Positions 7,603 to 51,231 of a DNA stretch of 64,000 nt are shown here, one piece after another (the stretch's first letter is position 1; each line of letters starts with the position of its first letter). The notes beneath the pieces were generated by a model. That model was not told the origin of the DNA. It ran no database searches and saw only the letters and a program-made list of their open reading frames with translations. The translations under genes were made by a program, and so were the position numbers. The stretch comes from Blakeslea trispora (Eukaryota; Mucoromycota; Mucoromycetes; Mucorales; Choanephoraceae), in the NCBI GenBank assembly GCA_025331445.1, contig JAIWNE010000017.1:186001-250000 (forward strand), written 5' to 3'.

Positions 7603-8895
7603 TTAAAGTGGTTGTTTATTTCTACACTTCTCCAAAGCTGCAACAGAGTGCTCAATTGACTTGGTTATTATATCCCGAGGTATATCATTACAAGCATCGC
7701 GAATTCTTGTGAACAAGTCTTCCTTATCGTTGAATTTACTACGTTTGACTCTATTTTTGACTAACGACCAAAAGTGCTCTATGGGGTTTAGCTCAGGAGA
7801 GTAAGGTGGAAGATATACACATATATAGCCTCTGCTGGTGATCAGCGTTTCTATTTCCTGATTGTTGTGGATAGGTGCATTATCCATTACGAGATAAAAG
7901 CCTTTTAGTTCAGGGTGTTTGTCTAACTGGTCAAGTGTCCCTCTCAAAAAATTGAGATAATGTCCTGTTGTAGTGCCTTTTTTTTCCTGCTTTTTTACTT
8001 TCAGTAGCTTTTCTTTTGCGACCTCCAGAAACTTTGATTCTCTTATTCATTTGAGGAACTCGTACTTCAATATTAACAACCCCAACAGTAGCTATTGCCC
8101 CTAAAATAGAATGTGATTCAGCTTTTGCAGATGGTGTTGAAGCGATAGCTGGAGCACCAGAGGCTGATCGTCCATGCGAAGGCCTCATGTTGATATCGAA
8201 GCCGGATTCATCAATAAAAATGCAGTTTCGAAGAAAATCCATGTCTGAACTATCGTATTTCATCACCCAATCGTATCTTGCTTGGATACGAGCAGGATCG
8301 TTTCGAGCTTTAGGTTGACGTTGCAACCTTTTGATCGTCAAATTACACTCATGTAATATGAAGCTATTGACAGTTGATTGTTTCAACGTAAATCCTTCAA
8401 AAGTTTTTGTTAAACTATCTACAACTTCGTCGGTTGTAGTGTAAGGCTTATTGTCAAAAAGCTCAAGAATGTGTAACTTTTGTGGCTCTTGAAGCTGACT
8501 CTTGGCCCGACTGCTTTTGTTAGTCTGCTTTTCATATATGTTCCAACCGGGTTCTGTTCTGATTCGTTTTGCCCAAGTTTGAGCAGTCCTCTCAGCACTT
8601 CCAGCATACTCTGCTGCTTTAGCAACAGAAAAAGAAACTTCATTTTCAAGTAGTATAGGAGCAAAGTTTTCTGAGCATCTGTGTAAGATGCCTAGTTTCT
8701 AACATTCCCAACTTTATTATCAATAGTCTTGTTTACTTTTTCAATGACGAGCGAACTTCTGTTCTCTAAATTTTCGTCCTTGGCATCGAGCTCAATGGGA
8801 ACAGGTTGGCATTTATTGTATTCACTTAAATCTGGTAAGTTTTGAAGATTAGACTCGCCTCCTTCTTCAATAAAGAATCTGTGTGTGTTGCTCAT
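7603..8895 (-). pseudogene. IS630/Tc1-like DDE transposase, frameshifted
   Basis: The minus strand encodes a DDE transposase in pieces. The N-terminal piece starts at ATG 8895. It is followed by a TAG near 8690 after GNVRN, a helix-turn-helix region (AKAAEYAGSAERTAQTWAKR) reached after a one-base frameshift, and the first Asp block (NCIFIDESGFDINMR). A T8 run at 7978-7985 (A8 on the coding strand) then shifts the frame by one base. The last piece holds the second Asp and Glu blocks (YLVMDNAPIHNNQEI; YLPPYSPELNPIEHFW) and ends at 7603. All three acidic residues survive, but at least three lesions prevent a full-length product. The parallel copy at 62.4-63.7 kb gives the expected continuous order. 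Confidence 0.85.
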
Positions 8896-31630: not shown

Positions 31631-31850
31631 GGGAGGGGTATGGGGGAGGGTCGTCCCTCCCCCAAGCGCGAAGCCATCATTAGTCAGGATCAGTAGAGTA
31701 AGCCTTAGCCATATGGGAGGGGGTTTAAGAGGGAGGGTTGTCCCTCCCCCTCACGCGAAGCTATCATTATTTAGAAACGGTGGATCAAGCCTGAACCAAC
31801 TGGGAGGGGGTATGGGGAGGGTAGTCCCTCCCCCTCACGCGAAGCCAGTA
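31631..31850. repeat. Three tandem ~86-bp repeats with G/C-rich palindromes ahead of the Helitron ORF
   Basis: Cores begin at 31631, 31715 and 31802. Each has GGGAGGGG followed by a short hairpin such as GGGGGAGGG-TCGT-CCCTCCCCC and a CGCGAAGC tail, then an AT-rich spacer. The loop differs between copies (TCGT, TTGT, TAGT). The last copy ends 10 bases before the Helitron ATG, which suits a promoter, replication-start or terminal-sequence role for the element. This is inference; such terminal arrays are not a general Helitron hallmark. Confidence 0.85.
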
Positions 31851-31858
31851 TTATTAAA

Positions 31859-34800
31859 ATGCCTGCAATTAGAATCTGTACTAGCTGTAATCAAGAAGGT
31901 CATTCCCGCATGACCAGTAGACTCGTTCCTAACAACCACCGTTCTGTCACTTGCACTAGCTGTGGTAACATAGGTCATCGTCGTGTCACTCATCGCGACT
32001 GTCCTAACAACGTTGCAAACCGTATGTTTCATTACCTACATACATATATGCAATCTAACACTGCATGTTTAGTAGAGCCTCAATCTAACTCTATGGATGT
32101 CGATAAACAAGTTGGAGACATCAATATTGACCTTCCTATAACAAACGATCTTATTTGTTCAAGCTGTGGTCAACCTGGGCACCTTCGTTCCACCAATAGG
32201 CAATGTGCTAACTATGTGGGTCGTAACAGGGAAGCCCGTCAGCTGTCCACACACAACATGGCGAGAAGAGGCACGCCTTCCTTCACTGAACGTTACGATC
32301 TTGGCGAAATGAACCAAGTTTGCAATCATTGTCAAGCTCGCAGGTGGACACTTGAAAAGAGTGGAGGCACAGTCTCTAATCCGGACTTTTCCTTATGCTG
32401 TGGTAAAGGAAAATATGTTCTCAATCCTTTGCCTGAAACACCCGGTTTGATTTTTGATCTATTGAAAGGGACAAATGGCCAAAGCAAAGAGTTTCGACAT
32501 AACATTAGAGCTTACAACAGTGCTCTAGGATTCACCTCACTTGGTTGTAATCTCGATACCACAGTAGCAAATTCAAGTGTTGGGGCCTATTCGTTTAGAA
32601 TTCATGGTAGCCTTTATCATCGTATTGGATCTTTGCATCCTCAAGAAGGAGAGATGCCTAAGTTTGCCCAGATTTACATCCATGACTCTGGATATGAAGT
32701 ACTTAATCGCCATGCACACAATCAACATTTGGACATCTCACTCTTGGCTGACCTTCAAGGTCTTATGCACATCATCAACCCTTTTGTTTGTGACTTCAAA
32801 TCAATGGCTCAATTGGTTAATGAGAGTCCCGATTCTGTGGCTGATGTTTCAATGGTTTTTAGAGCTGAAGGTACACCTGACCAAAGAAGATATAATGCAC
32901 CAACCACTTCAACTGAAATCGGTGTACTCATCGTTGGTGACGGCAGTCCAGATCAAGTTGGACAATCCACTCGAGACATTGTCATTCGACCAACAAGTGG
33001 AGGTCCTCTCCAAAGAATAAGCGAACTAAACCAATGGTATGACGCTATGAGCTACATCTTGCTTTTTCCTTTTGGTACCTCTGGCTGGAATATTGAGACT
33101 GTTTCTACCAATGGAAATCGGGTTACTGCCATGAAGTTTTACGCCTTCAGATTGATGATTAGAGGTAACAACCACTGTCTTCATTTGTTTGGGAATTTAT
33201 TTCAGCAGTATATTGTAGATATGTATGCCAAAATCGAGCAACAACGACTTTAGTTTCTCAGACACAATCAAGCACTGCTTAGATCGCATTTGTTGAGTGG
33301 GTTGCAAGATGCAATGAGATTAGATGACGGATCGACTGATTTGAGTGTTGTTGGTCGTAGAATGATTCTACCAAGTTCGTTCATTGGATCGTCACGACAT
33401 ATGCAGCAACTTTATCAAGATGCCATTAGTATTGTAAGACGGTTTGGAAAACCTGACTTTTTCATCACCTTTACATGCAATCCAAAATGGCCCGAAATTC
33501 AACGAGAGCTTTTGCATGCCAATCAGACGGCTCCTGATCGCCCTGACCTTTGTGCTCGCGTTTTCAAAATGAAGCTTGGTGCATTCATGGAGGATTTAGT
33601 CACCAAGCAAATTCTAGGAAAGGTTGTTGCACATATACATGTCATTGAGTTTCAAAAAAGAGGTCTCCCACATGCCCACATCCTTCTCATTGTAGCCGAC
33701 ACTGATAAGCCTAGAACCATTGAGGATATCGATAAGATTGTTTCTGCTCAAATTCCTGATCCTAAACTTCAGCCATTGGCATATCAAACGGTCACAAAAA
33801 ACATGATGCATGGACCATGTGGCCATCTCTGGCCTAACGCACCATGTATGAAGGATGGGAAATGCTCGAAATCATACCCTCACAAGTACAACCAAGGTAC
33901 TACTACTGAAGAGAATTCGGGCTATCCAAAGTACAGTAGACCTAACAACAGACGAGTGGTGTTTCGCCGTGGTATAGCACTTGGCAATGCTTGGGTTGTG
34001 CCTCACAATATTGATCTCTATATCAAATATGATGCCCATATCAACGTTGAGATATGTAACACCATCAAAAGTGTTAAATACATTTACAAATATGTGTATA
34101 AGGGTCATGATCGGGCAAGTGTTACGATACAGAATGCAAAACAAAATGGGCAGCCAACAGATGAGTCGAATGTAGTGGTTGAGGACAACGATGAGATTAA
34201 ACAGTTCTTGGATGCTCGGTATGTTTCTGCCTCTGAGGCCTGCTGGCGTATCTTTCATTTTTCCTTGCATCAAGAGTACCCATCTCATCAAAGGCTTCAG
34301 ATCCACCTAGAAGGCCAACAAAATGTGTGTTTTGATGAGAACTCAAATCGGCTTTTGGTTGATATTGTTGAAGATGCTCAAGCCAAAGATACCACTCTAA
34401 CTGCTTGGTTCAAATACAACCGTGATCATGAGTCTGCTAGACGGTATCTGTACAGTGAGTTTCCTGAATTTTTTGTTTGGAGGGATAACAAATGGCATCC
34501 TAGAAGGAACCCAAATGGTAGTACTATAGGTCGCATATACGCTGTATCCCCTAGGACTCAGGAAAAATATTATCTTCAAACGCTTCTTCATCATGTACGT
34601 GGTGCAAAGAACTTTCAAAATCTTCGTACTGTTAACAATGTTGTATGCTCAACATATCAAGCTGCTGCCAGAGCCTTGAATTTGCTAGCTTCTGACGAGC
34701 AATGGGATGCATGTTTGACAGAGTGCTTAAGCTTTCAATCCCCCTTGCAGTTGAGAAAGTTATTTTCTACCATTCTTTTGTTTTGTTTACCATCTGATCC

Positions 34801-36550
34801 TTTCAGTTTATGGAACAATTATAAAGAGAATTTAGCTGAGGATTACATTCATAAGTTGAGCAATAATCTTGATGTCTCCGCTCTCTCTGAATCAAGCTTA
34901 AATGAGTGTCATGACAAATGCTTTCTTGACATCAATGACCTCCTGACTGATGCTGGAAGAGCTATCACTGATTTCGAGGGCTTTAATATGCCTCAAAATG
35001 ACACTCGAGGTACCAATTTCAGTGCTGTTCATCCTTTACTTCGCGAGCATCTCAGATTGAATGCTGCGGCTTCTGAAGGTCCTGATCCTTCTCTATTGCC
35101 ATTCAATTCCAATCAGAGAGAGATATACGATAGCATTCTTGAGCTTGCCAATCAACCTCACTCATCTCAGCCAAGAATTGTTTTTATTGACGGACCAGGT
35201 GGTACTGGAAAAACTTTTCTGTTCAATGCGCTCTTAGACTCTGTACGCCGTACAAATGAAGTTGCAATCGCTGTGGCTCATAGTGGTACAGCCGCTACTC
35301 TTTTAAAAGGTGGTAGAACTGCACATTCAACATTCAAAATACCAATCGAGGTATCCAGTGAAAGTGTTTGTATGATGACGCCTCAATGCAAGGATGCAGA
35401 AATAGTACGAAGTGCAAATATAGTTTGGGATGAAGCGTCTATGATTAGTGTTGACCAAATAATGACAGTCAATCGTTCGTTGCGTGACATTATGAAAGTA
35501 GAAAGTCCACTATTGAAAGAAGTTCCTCTGGGCGGTAAGCTGTTTGTTTTTGGTGGCGATTTTCGTCAGGTTCTACCTGTAATCCCTCGAGCACAAAGAC
35601 CAGCCATTGTAAGTCAATGCCTCAACCAATCTCCTTTGTGGCCATTTGTAAAAACTCTTCGCTTGCACACTAATATGCGTGTTCAGCAAGCTCTTTCCTC
35701 AAACAATGCACAATTGGCTGAAGCTCTTCGTCAATTTTCTGTTTACTTGCTCCGTATCGGTGATGGAAAAGAATCTGTTGTCAACAATTCAAACTTCATT
35801 CGTCTTAATGATGAAATGATTCTACCAGGATCTGACATTTCTACTCTTGCAAATGCAGTCTATAACAGATTTCAATCTCCAAATGACCTTGATGCTGATA
35901 CCTTGGTATCGAAAGCTATCTTAGCACCCAAAAATACACAAGTCTCTGAGATTAACAGTGTAATCATGGATCAATTCCCCGGTGAATATGTTGAATACCT
36001 CAGCGCTGATAAAGTCGAAGATATAAGCCTTAGTATGCTTTATCCTGTTGAATTCTTGAATTCGCTTAACCCTGGCTCATTACCACCTCACTGCTTAAAA
36101 TTGAAGGTTGGCTCACCAGTAATGATGCTTAGAAATTTGTCTCCCAAAGATGGTGTATGCAATGGAACTCGAATGATTTGTAGATCATTCAAATCTCATA
36201 TCATTGAAGCTGAAATTGCAACAGGCCCAAACAAGGGTGCTACATTTTTAATCCCAAGAATAGATGTCATATCAAATGAAGTCCAAACAACTATCCCATT
36301 TAAAAGAAGACAATTTCCAATTAGGCCAGCATTTGCCATGACCATTAACAAAGCTCAAGGTCAAACACTTGACTCTGTTGGTCTTTTTCTCACAACGCCT
36401 GTCTTTTCGCATGGCCAACTATATGTTGCTTTCTCACGCATCAAGCAACCTTCTTCAATTAAGATCCTTTTGGACAGACAGATATCTACTATCAAAAACC
36501 ATGATGGATTATATACTGAAAACGTTGTTTTCAACGAAGTCTTCAAGTAA
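31859..36550 (+). pseudogene. Helitron Rep-helicase, near-complete, one in-frame TAG
   Basis: The frame is open for 464 codons, hits TAG at 33251-33253, and continues in the same frame to the stop at 36548-36550. This gives about 1562 codons with a single lesion. Three zinc-knuckle-like CX2CX4HX7C-type motifs lie at the N-terminus (the first lacks its last Cys), then Helitron_like_N (FITFTCNPKWPEIQ) and an HUH endonuclease motif (GLPHAHILL near 33665). A PIF1-type helicase follows, with Walker A GPGGTGKT near 35205, WDEASMIS, a GGDFRQVLPV block, and terminal TINKAQGQTLDSVG and YVAFSRI motifs. The left-edge copy reads Ser at the position of the TAG, so the stop is a point lesion and not a family feature. 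It sits between ATG101 and FPGS without disrupting either. Confidence 0.93.
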
Positions 36551-46275: not shown

Positions 46276-47647
46276 ATGTTCCCTTCTCAACAGGCCCTCA
46301 AGAACAACTTCATCGTCCCCTCTCCCGCTTCCGACGCTAAGCCTACTGGTGCTAACCTTTATGCTCGTTTTGCTCTTGCTGGTGCTATCTGTTGTTCCAT
46401 CACTCACGGTGCCATGTAAGTCATTTAATAAATCTTATCTACATGCTTATCTAATTTGTTTTTTTTTGTTCTATAGGGTAAATGATTGTTCTCTAAAGAA
46501 GATAAAAATATCAATAGGCAGAAATGACTAACAACACTCTTTTGTTATTAGACTCCCGTTGATGTTGTTAAGACCAGAATCCAATTGTCCCCTGAAGTTT
46601 ACAACAAGGTAAATAATAGATAACAAAAAAAAAAGGGAGCTTACGAATGAAAGGGGGAGAGAAGCACTGAATTTGCAGACAGGCTAATTTTAATTTGACT
46701 CATATCTTTAGGGTATGATCGCCGGTTTCCGTCAAGTTGTTCAAGCTGAAGGTGCTGGTGCCTTGTTGACAGGTTTCGGTCCTACCGCTGCTGGTTACTT
46801 CTTGCAAGGTGCCTTCAAGTTCGGTGGTTACGAATTCTGGAAGAAGACTGCCATTGACTTCATTGGTGTTGACAAGGCTTCTGAAAACCGTACTGCTATC
46901 TACCTCGGTTCCTCTGCTATTGCCGAATTCTTTGCTGATGTTGCTCTCTGTCCTTTGGAAGCTACTCGTATTCGTCTTGTCTCTCAACCTACTTTCGCTA
47001 ACGGTCTCCTCGGTGGTTTCGCCAAGATCTTGAAGGAAGAAGGTGCCATCAAGGGTTTCTACTCTGGTTTCGGTCCTATCTTGTTGAAGCAAGTTCCTTA
47101 CACCATGGCCAAGTTCGTTGTCTACGAACGTACTGTGTAAGTATAGAGAAAAAAAAACAAATTGGCGGACCATGCAAAGATAATTTAAGATTGCGAATAT
47201 AACAATGTCTTAACACCTTTTCTTTTTTGAATTATAGTGAAGCTATCTTGAAGGGTATGAACACTCCCAAGGACCAAATTGCTCCTTCCACTATGACTGC
47301 TGTCAACCTTTCTTCTGGTATTGTTGCCGGTACTGTTGCTGCCATTGTCTCTCAACCCGCTGATACCTTGTTGTCCAAGATCAACAAGCAAAAGGGTGCT
47401 GTTGGTGAATCTCTCACCTCTCGTCTCATTACCATGGCTGGTCAACTCGGTGTCAAGGGTCTCTTCTTGGGTCTTGGTCCTCGTATTGTCATGGTTGCTA
47501 CTCTTACTGCTGGTCAATTGTAAGTTTATTATATACAACGATGATCGTGTCATCAACTAACCCCTTTTCTCTTTTCCCTTTAGCGCTATCTACGGTGACA
47601 TCAAGCGTGTCTTGGGTGCTACTGGTGGTGTCGAAATTGCCAAATAA
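46276..47647 (+). CDS. Mitochondrial phosphate carrier (SLC25A3/MIR1 type) with a one-nucleotide exon
   Basis: Exons 46276-46415, 46477 (one base), 46552-46608, 46712-47136, 47238-47519 and 47584-47647 give 322 residues. Three mitochondrial-carrier repeats are seen, with [21 protein letters not shown] and QPADTLLSK signatures and the phosphate-carrier strings [20 protein letters not shown] and [20 protein letters not shown]. It imports phosphate with protons across the inner membrane for ATP synthesis. Codon bias is strong (GGT, GCT, GTC, AAG). The first junction needs one extra base to restore frame: GCC AT | G | ACT CCC gives HGAMTPVDVVK, matching the conserved Met of the family. That G is flanked by an upstream ...CTATAG acceptor and a downstream GTAAAT donor, so canonical rules force a one-base exon or an equivalent two-step splice. 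Confidence 0.93.
46416..46551 (+). other. Back-to-back introns flanking the 1-nt exon at 46477
   Basis: Intron a (46416-46476, 61 nt): GTAAGT donor, CTAAT branch-like site, T-tract, CTATAG acceptor. Intron b (46478-46551, 74 nt): GTAAAT donor, ACTAAC branch site near 46528, TTATTAG acceptor. Skipping the G as one 136-nt intron would shift the frame. Retaining the middle would meet an in-frame TAA. Confidence 0.8.
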
Positions 47648-48049: not shown

Positions 48050-48790
48050 AATAGGAAAGATGGCCATTTATAACCTTATGACAAGTGAATGCAATTAAAC
48101 TTTTAAAGAAATTCGCATGTATTCGACTCAGAGGAACAGTCCTGACAACATGGAGCGAAGATATTGATGGGTTTTAAATTAGGTTAAAGAGACGGGCATA
48201 AAATACATGAGCGATTGTGTTTTTATAGATGAAGCCACTTTACACATAAATCTTAAGTGGTCTATGGTGTGATAAAAAAAAAACGGGAATAGAGCTGAAG
48301 TGTACCTGAAACTGAAGCAAGGACCACAATGATTTTGGGTACGATTTCACCGTTTGGAATTGTAAATATCCCGCTTCGCCGACCCATGATACCATCTAAG
48401 AAGAGAAGACTAGGTAGTAATCACTTCGCTGCTAAAGATGCAAGGAATACAGTAATAGGTCATTATATAAACTTCGTGAAAAGTACCTTGGACATCTTGG
48501 ATAACCACGAAGAGTTTAAAGGACATTATATTGTCATGAACAATGCTCCAATGGATACTTCAAAAGACATTGAACGTTATATCACCAGTCGTGGCTATAA
48601 TTGTACATATCTCCCTCCATGCTCTCCTGAACTCCACTCTATTGAGCAATTTTGGTCTGTTGTTAAGAGAGAAAAACTTTTGGAAAAAGAGACAGTTTCC
48701 AATAAAATCAAAGAAGTATGCAACAGTGTCCTCTTTAGCGACCTTCAAGGATTTTGCTATTATTCCACCACAAAGTTTAAGGATGATTAG
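48050..48790 (+). pseudogene. IS630/Tc1-like transposase relic
   Basis: Upstream (48200-48260) several frames keep the first Asp block (CVFIDEATLHINLKWSM), followed by stops. The frame 48329-48790 then reads MILGTISPFGIVNI, a short N-H-rich linker, HYIVMNNAPMDTSKDIERYI and YLPPCSPELHSIEQFWSVVK. The second catalytic Asp of MDNA has become Asn, and NPIE has become HSIE, so this copy is catalytically dead as well as broken. No terminal repeats were recognised. Confidence 0.8.
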
Positions 48791-50245: not shown

Positions 50246-51231
50246 CAGCAACCGAACATCCGAAAGACTACTTGGGCTTTTCTTTGTCATTGATTGTTTT
50301 TGTAGTTTATTTTGATAATATAAAAAAAAAGCGGGACTAGTACTTGGTTGTACCACCTTTGGCATCAATGACAATTTGACAGCGGTCCTTCATGCTGTCC
50401 ACCAAGCGAACAAGTAGATCACTACTGATCTTGTTCCACTCCTCCAGCAGCGATTCCTTCAATTCTGCAGTATTATGGACAGCATGACGTCTACTTGCTA
50501 TAGGCAACCCCGAAGCATCACCACTACCCTTACCCCACTTGGCGGAGGGTATAGTAAACTCCTCCTTGTACCTCTCACCTTGGTGTCGGAGCACTCTAAC
50601 GCCACCATCGGCTCCTTCAACGGTATAGTGAGATTCGTCAGACCAGACAACATCTGCCCACTGGTCTGTTGTCCAATTGACATGTTCCTTTGCCCATTTG
50701 AGGCGAAACTCCTTGTGCTTCTTCGTCAAGGCAGGCTTATGGGCTGCATAATACGATTTGAAGCCCAACTGACGAAGATAGCTAACGACAGTCTTTCGAC
50801 AGACTGTCGCCTCCAACTTTTCTAGCTCGTGTCTGGCACCATCGATGCTCAGGAAAGGATTGTTGGTTACAGTCCTGTCCAGGTGTCTCATTGTTCTTTC
50901 ATCGGCTTTGGATGTTGAGCCAGGAGGAGCGCTGGGCAGAGGTGTATCTCTTTCTTGGATACGCTTCACGATGCTGTTTACAGTCGTGTAAGGGATCTCC
51001 ATTATGCGTAGAATCTCTCTCATGGAATGTTTAGCGTGATTCAACCAATAAACCCCCAATAAATTTTTTCTTCACGCTTGTTTTATTTGCCACGGCTGCT
51101 TTTATTTTCGATAGTAGACATGTTTGAATTGAATTGTTTTCTTGTAAAAAGAATGGAATGTTTATTGTGGTCATCATCATGCCAGATATGCTTTATTTAA
51201 TGCCCGATCGAATTTCGGTTTCCAGTGACTG
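50246..51231 (-). mobile_element. Tc1-like element, internally deleted
   Basis: The right end is clear: read inward it is CAGTCACTGGAAACCGAAAT, at 51231, next to a TA. The left end is less certain (CAGCAACCGAACATCCG at 50246, preceded by TA). The element sits inside a dispersed repeat whose intact relative is at 59.47-59.56 kb. Confidence 0.6.
50337..51059 (-). pseudogene. Tc1-family transposase lacking its catalytic centre
   Basis: An open 240-codon frame. It has a helix-turn-helix (MREILRIMEIPYTTVNSIVK), a second DNA-binding region, the first catalytic Asp block (WADVVWSDESHYTVEG) and the family ending (SMKDRCQIVIDAKGGTTKY). Between KWGKGS and NTAELKESLLEEW the chain jumps straight across the region that should hold the VWG block and the second Asp and Glu, so about 100 residues are deleted in frame. 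The product could still bind ends but cannot cut, so it could act as a repressor if expressed (inference). Confidence 0.85.

Follow-up and report, generated by a model that had tools for sequence, protein, structure and literature searches.

Very few one-nucleotide exons of nuclear genes have been published; the literature we found describes those of plant APC11 and VPS55 and of Fusarium CYP621A. In Arabidopsis APC11, a one-base exon (A) in a 422-nt interval was proven by base change in protoplasts (Guo and Liu, 2015; PMC4674806); it is constitutive, had been missed by annotation, and is proposed to depend on intron definition with sequential removal of the introns (PMC4674806). The 1-nt microexons of plant APC11 and VPS55 are described as missing from reference annotations although land plants as a group have kept them, with support from RNA-seq and RT-PCR (Nat Commun, 2022; PMC8831610). 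The Fusarium case, an ascomycete P450 gene in which the exon is a G forming the middle base of a Gly codon, is confirmed by transcript reads, and the exon occurs in 20 orthologs (Nelson and Syed, 2026; PMC12940212). A single-base-pair exon has also been described in placozoan mitochondrial cox1 (PMC5436844). By their titles, the placozoan and Ophiostoma papers retrieved with these reports deal mostly with mitochondrial genomes. The placozoan cox1 exon, being part of a mitochondrial gene, is not a spliceosomal case.

Here we describe a putative one-nucleotide exon in the mitochondrial phosphate carrier gene of the mucoralean fungus Blakeslea trispora, found in a window of 64,000 nt (contig JAIWNE010000017.1, positions 186,001-250,000) to which the coordinates below refer unless stated otherwise. 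As in Fusarium CYP621A, the site lies in a fungal nuclear gene, consists of a single G, in the context AG-G-GT, with a short intron on each side, is needed to complete a codon of a conserved motif, and is one at which gene models go wrong; it differs from CYP621A in that the gene is a mucoralean housekeeping carrier, that the G is the third base of a Met codon, and that it is seen in the DNA of one genome. With APC11 it shares the canonical AG and GT on either side of the base. Like fungal stwintrons, it has two spliceosomal introns at one place that would be removed successively (PMC9024468, PMC5639578), whereas stwintrons are defined by an interrupted splice signal that forces the order of removal (PMC9024468). 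Neither of the two introns described here interrupts the other. The site also resembles recursive splicing, in that an acceptor meets a donor and the first removal would set up the second donor; at a classical recursive point, however, the mRNA keeps no base of an exon, whereas here one G would stay. The initial annotation of this DNA had mentioned that single-base exons are reported in plants, as APC11 and VPS55 show; since 2026 they are known in Fusarium as well (PMC12940212), and the carrier exon is thus not the first in fungi. We found no report of a one-nucleotide exon in Mucorales or in a phosphate carrier gene in the open-licence literature, and the exon is probably a real new case of a very rare, already known kind. 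Such a case, in a central mitochondrial gene of which no other close copy was found in the genome, would show that fungal intron definition can handle the smallest possible exon, even in a gene where mis-splicing can be ill afforded.

Layout and identity of the carrier gene

The carrier gene runs on the plus strand from the ATG at 46276 to the TAA at 47647 and is read here as six coding exons, of which the second has only one base; the coding sequence, G46477 included, is 969 nt long and specifies 322 amino acids. Coding exon 1 (46276..46415, +) extends from the ATG to GCC-AT and ends after two bases of the Met47 codon. It is followed by intron A (46416..46476, +; 61 nt, GTAAGT...CTATAG), the putative one-nucleotide exon G (46477..46477, +), which supplies the third base of the Met47 codon ATG, intron B (46478..46551, +; 74 nt, GTAAAT...TATTAG), and coding exon 3 (46552..46608, +), which holds the first carrier signature, PxDxVKTR. 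The remainder of the gene is conventional, with coding exons 4 (46712..47136, +), 5 (47238..47519, +), and 6 (47584..47647, +; with the stop codon TAA) set off by ordinary introns of 103 nt (46609..46711, +; GTAAAT...CTTTAG), 101 nt (47137..47237, +; GTAAGT...TTATAG), and 64 nt (47520..47583, +; GTAAGT...CTTTAG). G46477 itself sits in the sequence CTATAG-G-GTAAAT (46471-46483), inside what appears to be a single intron. Re-reading of positions 46404-46425, 46468-46484, and 46540-46570 bears out the boundaries first proposed, with exon 1 ending in GCCAT at 46415 and the next long exon beginning with ACTCCC at 46552.

The spliced product contains three Mito_carr repeats (PF00153 in three stretches, 158.4 bits), and its nearest relatives bear names such as mitochondrial phosphate carrier and Cu/Pi carrier, in keeping with a protein of the MIR1/SLC25A3 type. 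The best relative is a Choanephora cucurbitarum protein (P0001) with 99% identity, which aligns without an internal gap and differs at 3 of the 322 residues. At the position of Met47, most relatives among the matches listed have Met or Leu, followed by TPVDVVKT; four relatives of 90-93% identity on contigs of 1.05-1.4 kb, cDNA-like by their length, keep the residues across the junction, including the Met codon. No other close mitochondrial phosphate carrier was found in the genome, the next-best carrier being 45% identical, and the gene looks functional. The second carrier (L002, G000:C264:284346-288065), at that 45% identity, carries the motif TPLDLVKCRNQ; its introns, as read by eye, lie elsewhere, with none at the Met-Thr junction, and it therefore gives no guidance on the one-base exon.

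Splicing solutions at the junction

The conserved Met codon is one base short at the junction, so that, as the initial annotation had stated, exactly one base is needed between 46415 and 46552. If 46416-46551 is removed as one intron of 136 nt, the reading frame is lost and a stop follows at codon 68, and keeping the middle sequence leads to a stop as well, at codon 65 if intron B is kept and at codon 48 if intron A is kept; on both counts the earlier reading stands. We enumerated one- and two-step GT/GC-AG splicing over positions 46380-46574 with introns of at least 30 nt, nested schemes included, the two-step schemes comprising those in which an inner intron leaves first and an outer one is then spliced from the joined RNA. 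The enumeration leaves one structure that gives the conserved protein, namely, removal of 46416-46476 and 46478-46551, in either order, with retention of G46477, in agreement with the claim that this G is the only base that canonical splice rules can supply. When single introns were allowed any end bases, 13 within 46380-46569 left the motifs on both sides in the same frame; two of these, both 135 nt long and non-canonical, give the exact conserved protein, whereas in each of the remaining 11 a residue is lost, changed, or added. Single AT-AC and GC-AG introns were also considered and rejected, as none restores the conserved motif with its Met.

A conserved Met codon that is one base short, together with a single canonical structure, argues for a one-base exon at G46477, and we put the probability that this G is a constitutive one-nucleotide exon between two complete, ordinary short spliceosomal introns at roughly 85%, the splicing being inferred from the DNA and from protein conservation. 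A twin intron had been offered as an alternative that would give the same mRNA; sequential removal of two independent neighboring introns is upheld by the enumeration, but a nested stwintron is not, since there is no nested solution.

Introns A and B each have an acceptor and a branch-like motif of their own 20-22 nt from the end, of the CTAAY type that is the fungal branch consensus. By motif position, the likely branch site of intron A is CTAAT (46451..46455, +), with the branch A 22 nt from the intron end, and that of intron B is CTAAC (46528..46532, +), with the branch A 20 nt from the end; intron A also has a long T tract. The other three introns of the gene have GTAAAT or GTAAGT as donor and a CTAAY or TTAAC motif that lies 23-24 nt before the acceptor end, so that A and B resemble them in donor (GTAAGT/GTAAAT), acceptor (TAG), and distance of the branch-like A from the end (20-24 nt overall); two of these three other donors likewise follow a T. 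The mean intron length in C. cucurbitarum is given as 71.39 nt (n = 35,533 introns; PMC5238444), by which measure 61 and 74 nt are typical lengths and 136 nt is about twice the mean.

Two unsupervised intron sets drawn from 260 kb of the same contig were discarded as too noisy to serve as evidence, because many of their members were plainly false and the stretch is rich in transposons. In one of them (39 picks, 37 kept), noisy as it is, intron A scored 7.06 for its donor and 4.26 for its acceptor, both within range, and intron B scored 4.26 for its donor, in the lower quarter, and -0.85 for its acceptor, below all 37 (lowest, 1.0). The other set (47 picks, under a rule of 60 open codons on each side) listed neither A nor B.

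As for mechanism, introns A and B would each be recognized alone by intron definition, with splice sites pairing across the short introns. Because the acceptor of A lies one base from the donor of B, two spliceosomes could not act there together, and the introns would have to leave successively; sequential removal, which follows from the size of the spliceosome, has also been argued for APC11 (PMC4674806). Removal of A first would leave CCATG/GTAAAT, an ordinary donor, and removal of B first would leave CTATAG/GACTCCC, an ordinary acceptor; either order would yield the mature junction GGTGCCATGACTCCC with the conserved Met47, and failure of either step would expose the early stop at codon 48 or 65. 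The stepwise order in which A and B are removed is in this scheme an inference.

Chance and genome-scan controls

The 136-nt interval was shuffled 20,000 times with dinucleotides preserved and the six end bases fixed on each side. Taken as guides rather than strict probabilities, given that the criteria were set after the site had been seen and that the letters were drawn from the real interval itself, the shuffles contained AG-N-GT flanked by halves of 45 nt or more in 6.9% of cases, and an internal AG-G-GT with the same minimum in 2.4%. The figure fell to 0.34% when the donor also had to be consensus-like, and to 0.01% (2/20,000) for the complete arrangement, in which each half has a branch motif and there is a pyrimidine-AG as well. 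When both strands of 260 kb of the same contig were scanned for pairs of complete introns separated by one base, preceded by 30 or more open codons and followed by 18 or more (again criteria set with the site in hand, so that the outcome is a guide), no second site was found and only the carrier junction matched.

Gene models of relatives at the junction

From 124 distinct proteins listed, we took the 48 rows whose source name is that of a fungus that we place in Mucoromycotina, leaving out rows without an organism name and those from other fungi. The protein models of 36 of them are intact across the junction, and the remaining 12 break at it or begin just past it. Ten have an internal break at the junction (P0012, P0013, P0014, P0017, P0019, P0021, P0022, P0025, P0036, and P0050); P0121 and P0122 begin only at the equivalent of Met68, for which other causes are possible. 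As a control, we counted breaks anywhere else between residue 27 and the C-terminus, short C-terminal extensions left aside; only 2 of the 48 had any (P0046 and P0064), and the models thus fail at the junction more often than elsewhere in the protein body. Residues 1-26 were not counted: gaps within residues 15-26 were dropped by the script, and a gap at residues 7-11, shared by 10 rows, looks like lineage variation.

The broken models are of more than one kind. Four of them (P0017, P0022, P0025, and P0036) read THGAI and then IQLSPE or MQLSPE, and THGAI-IQLSPE is the join that is obtained in the Blakeslea gene by splicing from GT46416 to AG46577; this join is found in deposited models of R. 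arrhizus, R. stolonifer, and M. flavus and in one R. delemar entry. Exon 1 therefore probably ends in AT at the same place in those species, the next acceptor having been unusable for the gene finder or passed over by it; the models are compatible with a one-base exon, rather than proof of it. In four others (P0012, P0013, P0014, and P0019, from R. microsporus, R. azygosporus, M. bainieri, and Mycotypha), an Arg immediately precedes TPVDVV. If the exon is continuous there, it would read AG/G-ACT, with the G on the downstream exon and an ordinary intron in those species, which argues that a one-base exon would not be universal in the order. A search with the protein for relatives' DNA in genome and viral contig collections gave 26 and 7 pattern matches, respectively, none of which encodes a relative.

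The deposited models P0017, P0021, P0022, P0025, P0036, P0050, P0121, and P0122 are incomplete ahead of residue 68, and in some the gap takes in the first PxDxVKTR signature. Faulty annotation of this same junction is the probable cause, models without the first signature motif being probably wrong, and a one-base exon may explain the fault in several Mucorales carrier models.

Alternative explanations

The main remaining doubt about the one-base exon is a one-base loss, through assembly error or recent deletion, that would have removed one G of a GG pair from the edge of one ordinary intron of ∼136 nt. The true form would then be ATG/GTAAGT...TTAG/ACT or AT/GTAAGT...TTAG/G-ACT, and the boundary would read ATGGTAAGT or TTAGGACTCCC, with one G more than the assembly. 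The Arg before TPVDVV in the four relatives' models suggests AG/G-ACT in those species, which makes loss of a base in the assembly or the strain a serious alternative; in addition, the sequence comes from one assembly, and the 101- and 103-nt introns in the same gene make one of 136 nt conceivable. A lost base would, however, leave the internal acceptor, the needed base, the donor, and the branch motifs in both halves as a coincidence of the kind met in 2 of the 20,000 shuffles. It also has to be set against the uniqueness of the site in the 260 kb, a coding sequence otherwise free of frameshifts over its 969 nt, and a length of 136 nt where introns in the nearest described species average about half that, and we consider it unlikely. 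A different proposal is that another splice is used and that the conserved protein is not made as assumed. Both candidates, GC46411-AG46551 (Ala and Met lost) and GT46416-AG46577 (nine residues lost, giving THGAI-IQLSPEV), are open and in frame, and the second reproduces the join of the four deposited models named above (R. arrhizus, R. stolonifer, M. flavus, and one R. delemar entry). They would nevertheless delete Met47 or PVDVVKTR, both of which are present in intact models (C. cucurbitarum, R. delemar RO3G_04902), the four cDNA-like relatives of 90-93% identity keep the stretch, and the shortened protein scores lower on Mito_carr (126.7 versus 158.4 bits), which leaves such a splice very unlikely.

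The remaining alternatives concern how the same interval might be removed. One 135-nt intron with non-canonical ends (GT..TA, 46416-46550, or TA..AG, 46417-46551), with the internal AG-G-GT unused, would produce an identical mRNA and protein, so that a mature mRNA or an RNA-seq junction alone would be no proof of the exon. Two complete canonical introns are present instead, and neither pair of ends is known from regular spliceosomal introns; we regard this explanation as highly improbable. A nested stwintron, in which one intron interrupts a splice signal of the other and the inner one must go first, has in its favor that it is a described kind of paired fungal intron (PMC9024468, PMC5639578) and that A and B lie nearly as close together. 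Yet in the genomic DNA nothing interrupts the donor or the acceptor of either intron, either intron can go first, and no nested order yields the right protein under canonical GT/GC-AG rules, and its probability appears close to negligible.

Origin of the exon

If G46477 is a one-base exon, the models of the relatives suggest that the older state was an intron of the form AT/.../GACT. The present arrangement could then have come about in either of two ways: a new intron may have been inserted between the G and ACT, or the exonic G may have been lost and the frame rescued by an AG-G-GT within the intron, the route suggested by Nelson and Syed for Fusarium (PMC12940212). A search of the genome at E ≤ 1, in which simple repeats and very common words are skipped, gave no second match to the 136-nt interval, and there is no likeness between introns A and B (local score 8, reached by 833 of 1,000 shuffles); neither introner copying nor the doubling of one intron into two is thus indicated.

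A wider scenario, which we put forward as a tentative and rather doubtful one, is that the one-base exon is common to Choanephora, Rhizopus arrhizus, R. stolonifer, and Mucor flavus, that it arose from a phase-2 intron AT/.../GACT (kept in R. microsporus, Mucor bainieri, and Mycotypha) that was split beside its acceptor, and that it has been missed because gene finders cannot place it. Were this true, the clade would have both states and would show the stepwise birth of a one-base exon in an essential gene, and obligatory stepwise splicing might limit the output of the phosphate carrier. With the ordinary intron in some relatives and the split one in others, the origin of one-base exons would become testable.

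Neighborhood of the gene

Several frames in the window have features of mobile elements. Just downstream of the carrier gene, a frame at 48299-48787 (+) has a DDE_3 endonuclease domain and is probably a piece of a Tc1/mariner-like transposase; another, at 50340-51071 (-), has an HTH_Tnp_Tc3_2 transposase domain. Upstream, the interval 31775-36547 (+) contains two long successive frames of 492 and 1098 amino acids and is a possible Helitron-like element, the 492-residue frame matching Helitron_like_N only below the Pfam cut-off. The intron scan also came upon the same 140-nt stretch, with the same ends, on the minus strand at window position 8609 and at contig position C79:181620; this is probably a repeated element, and its copy in the window falls in the frame 7934-8698 (-).
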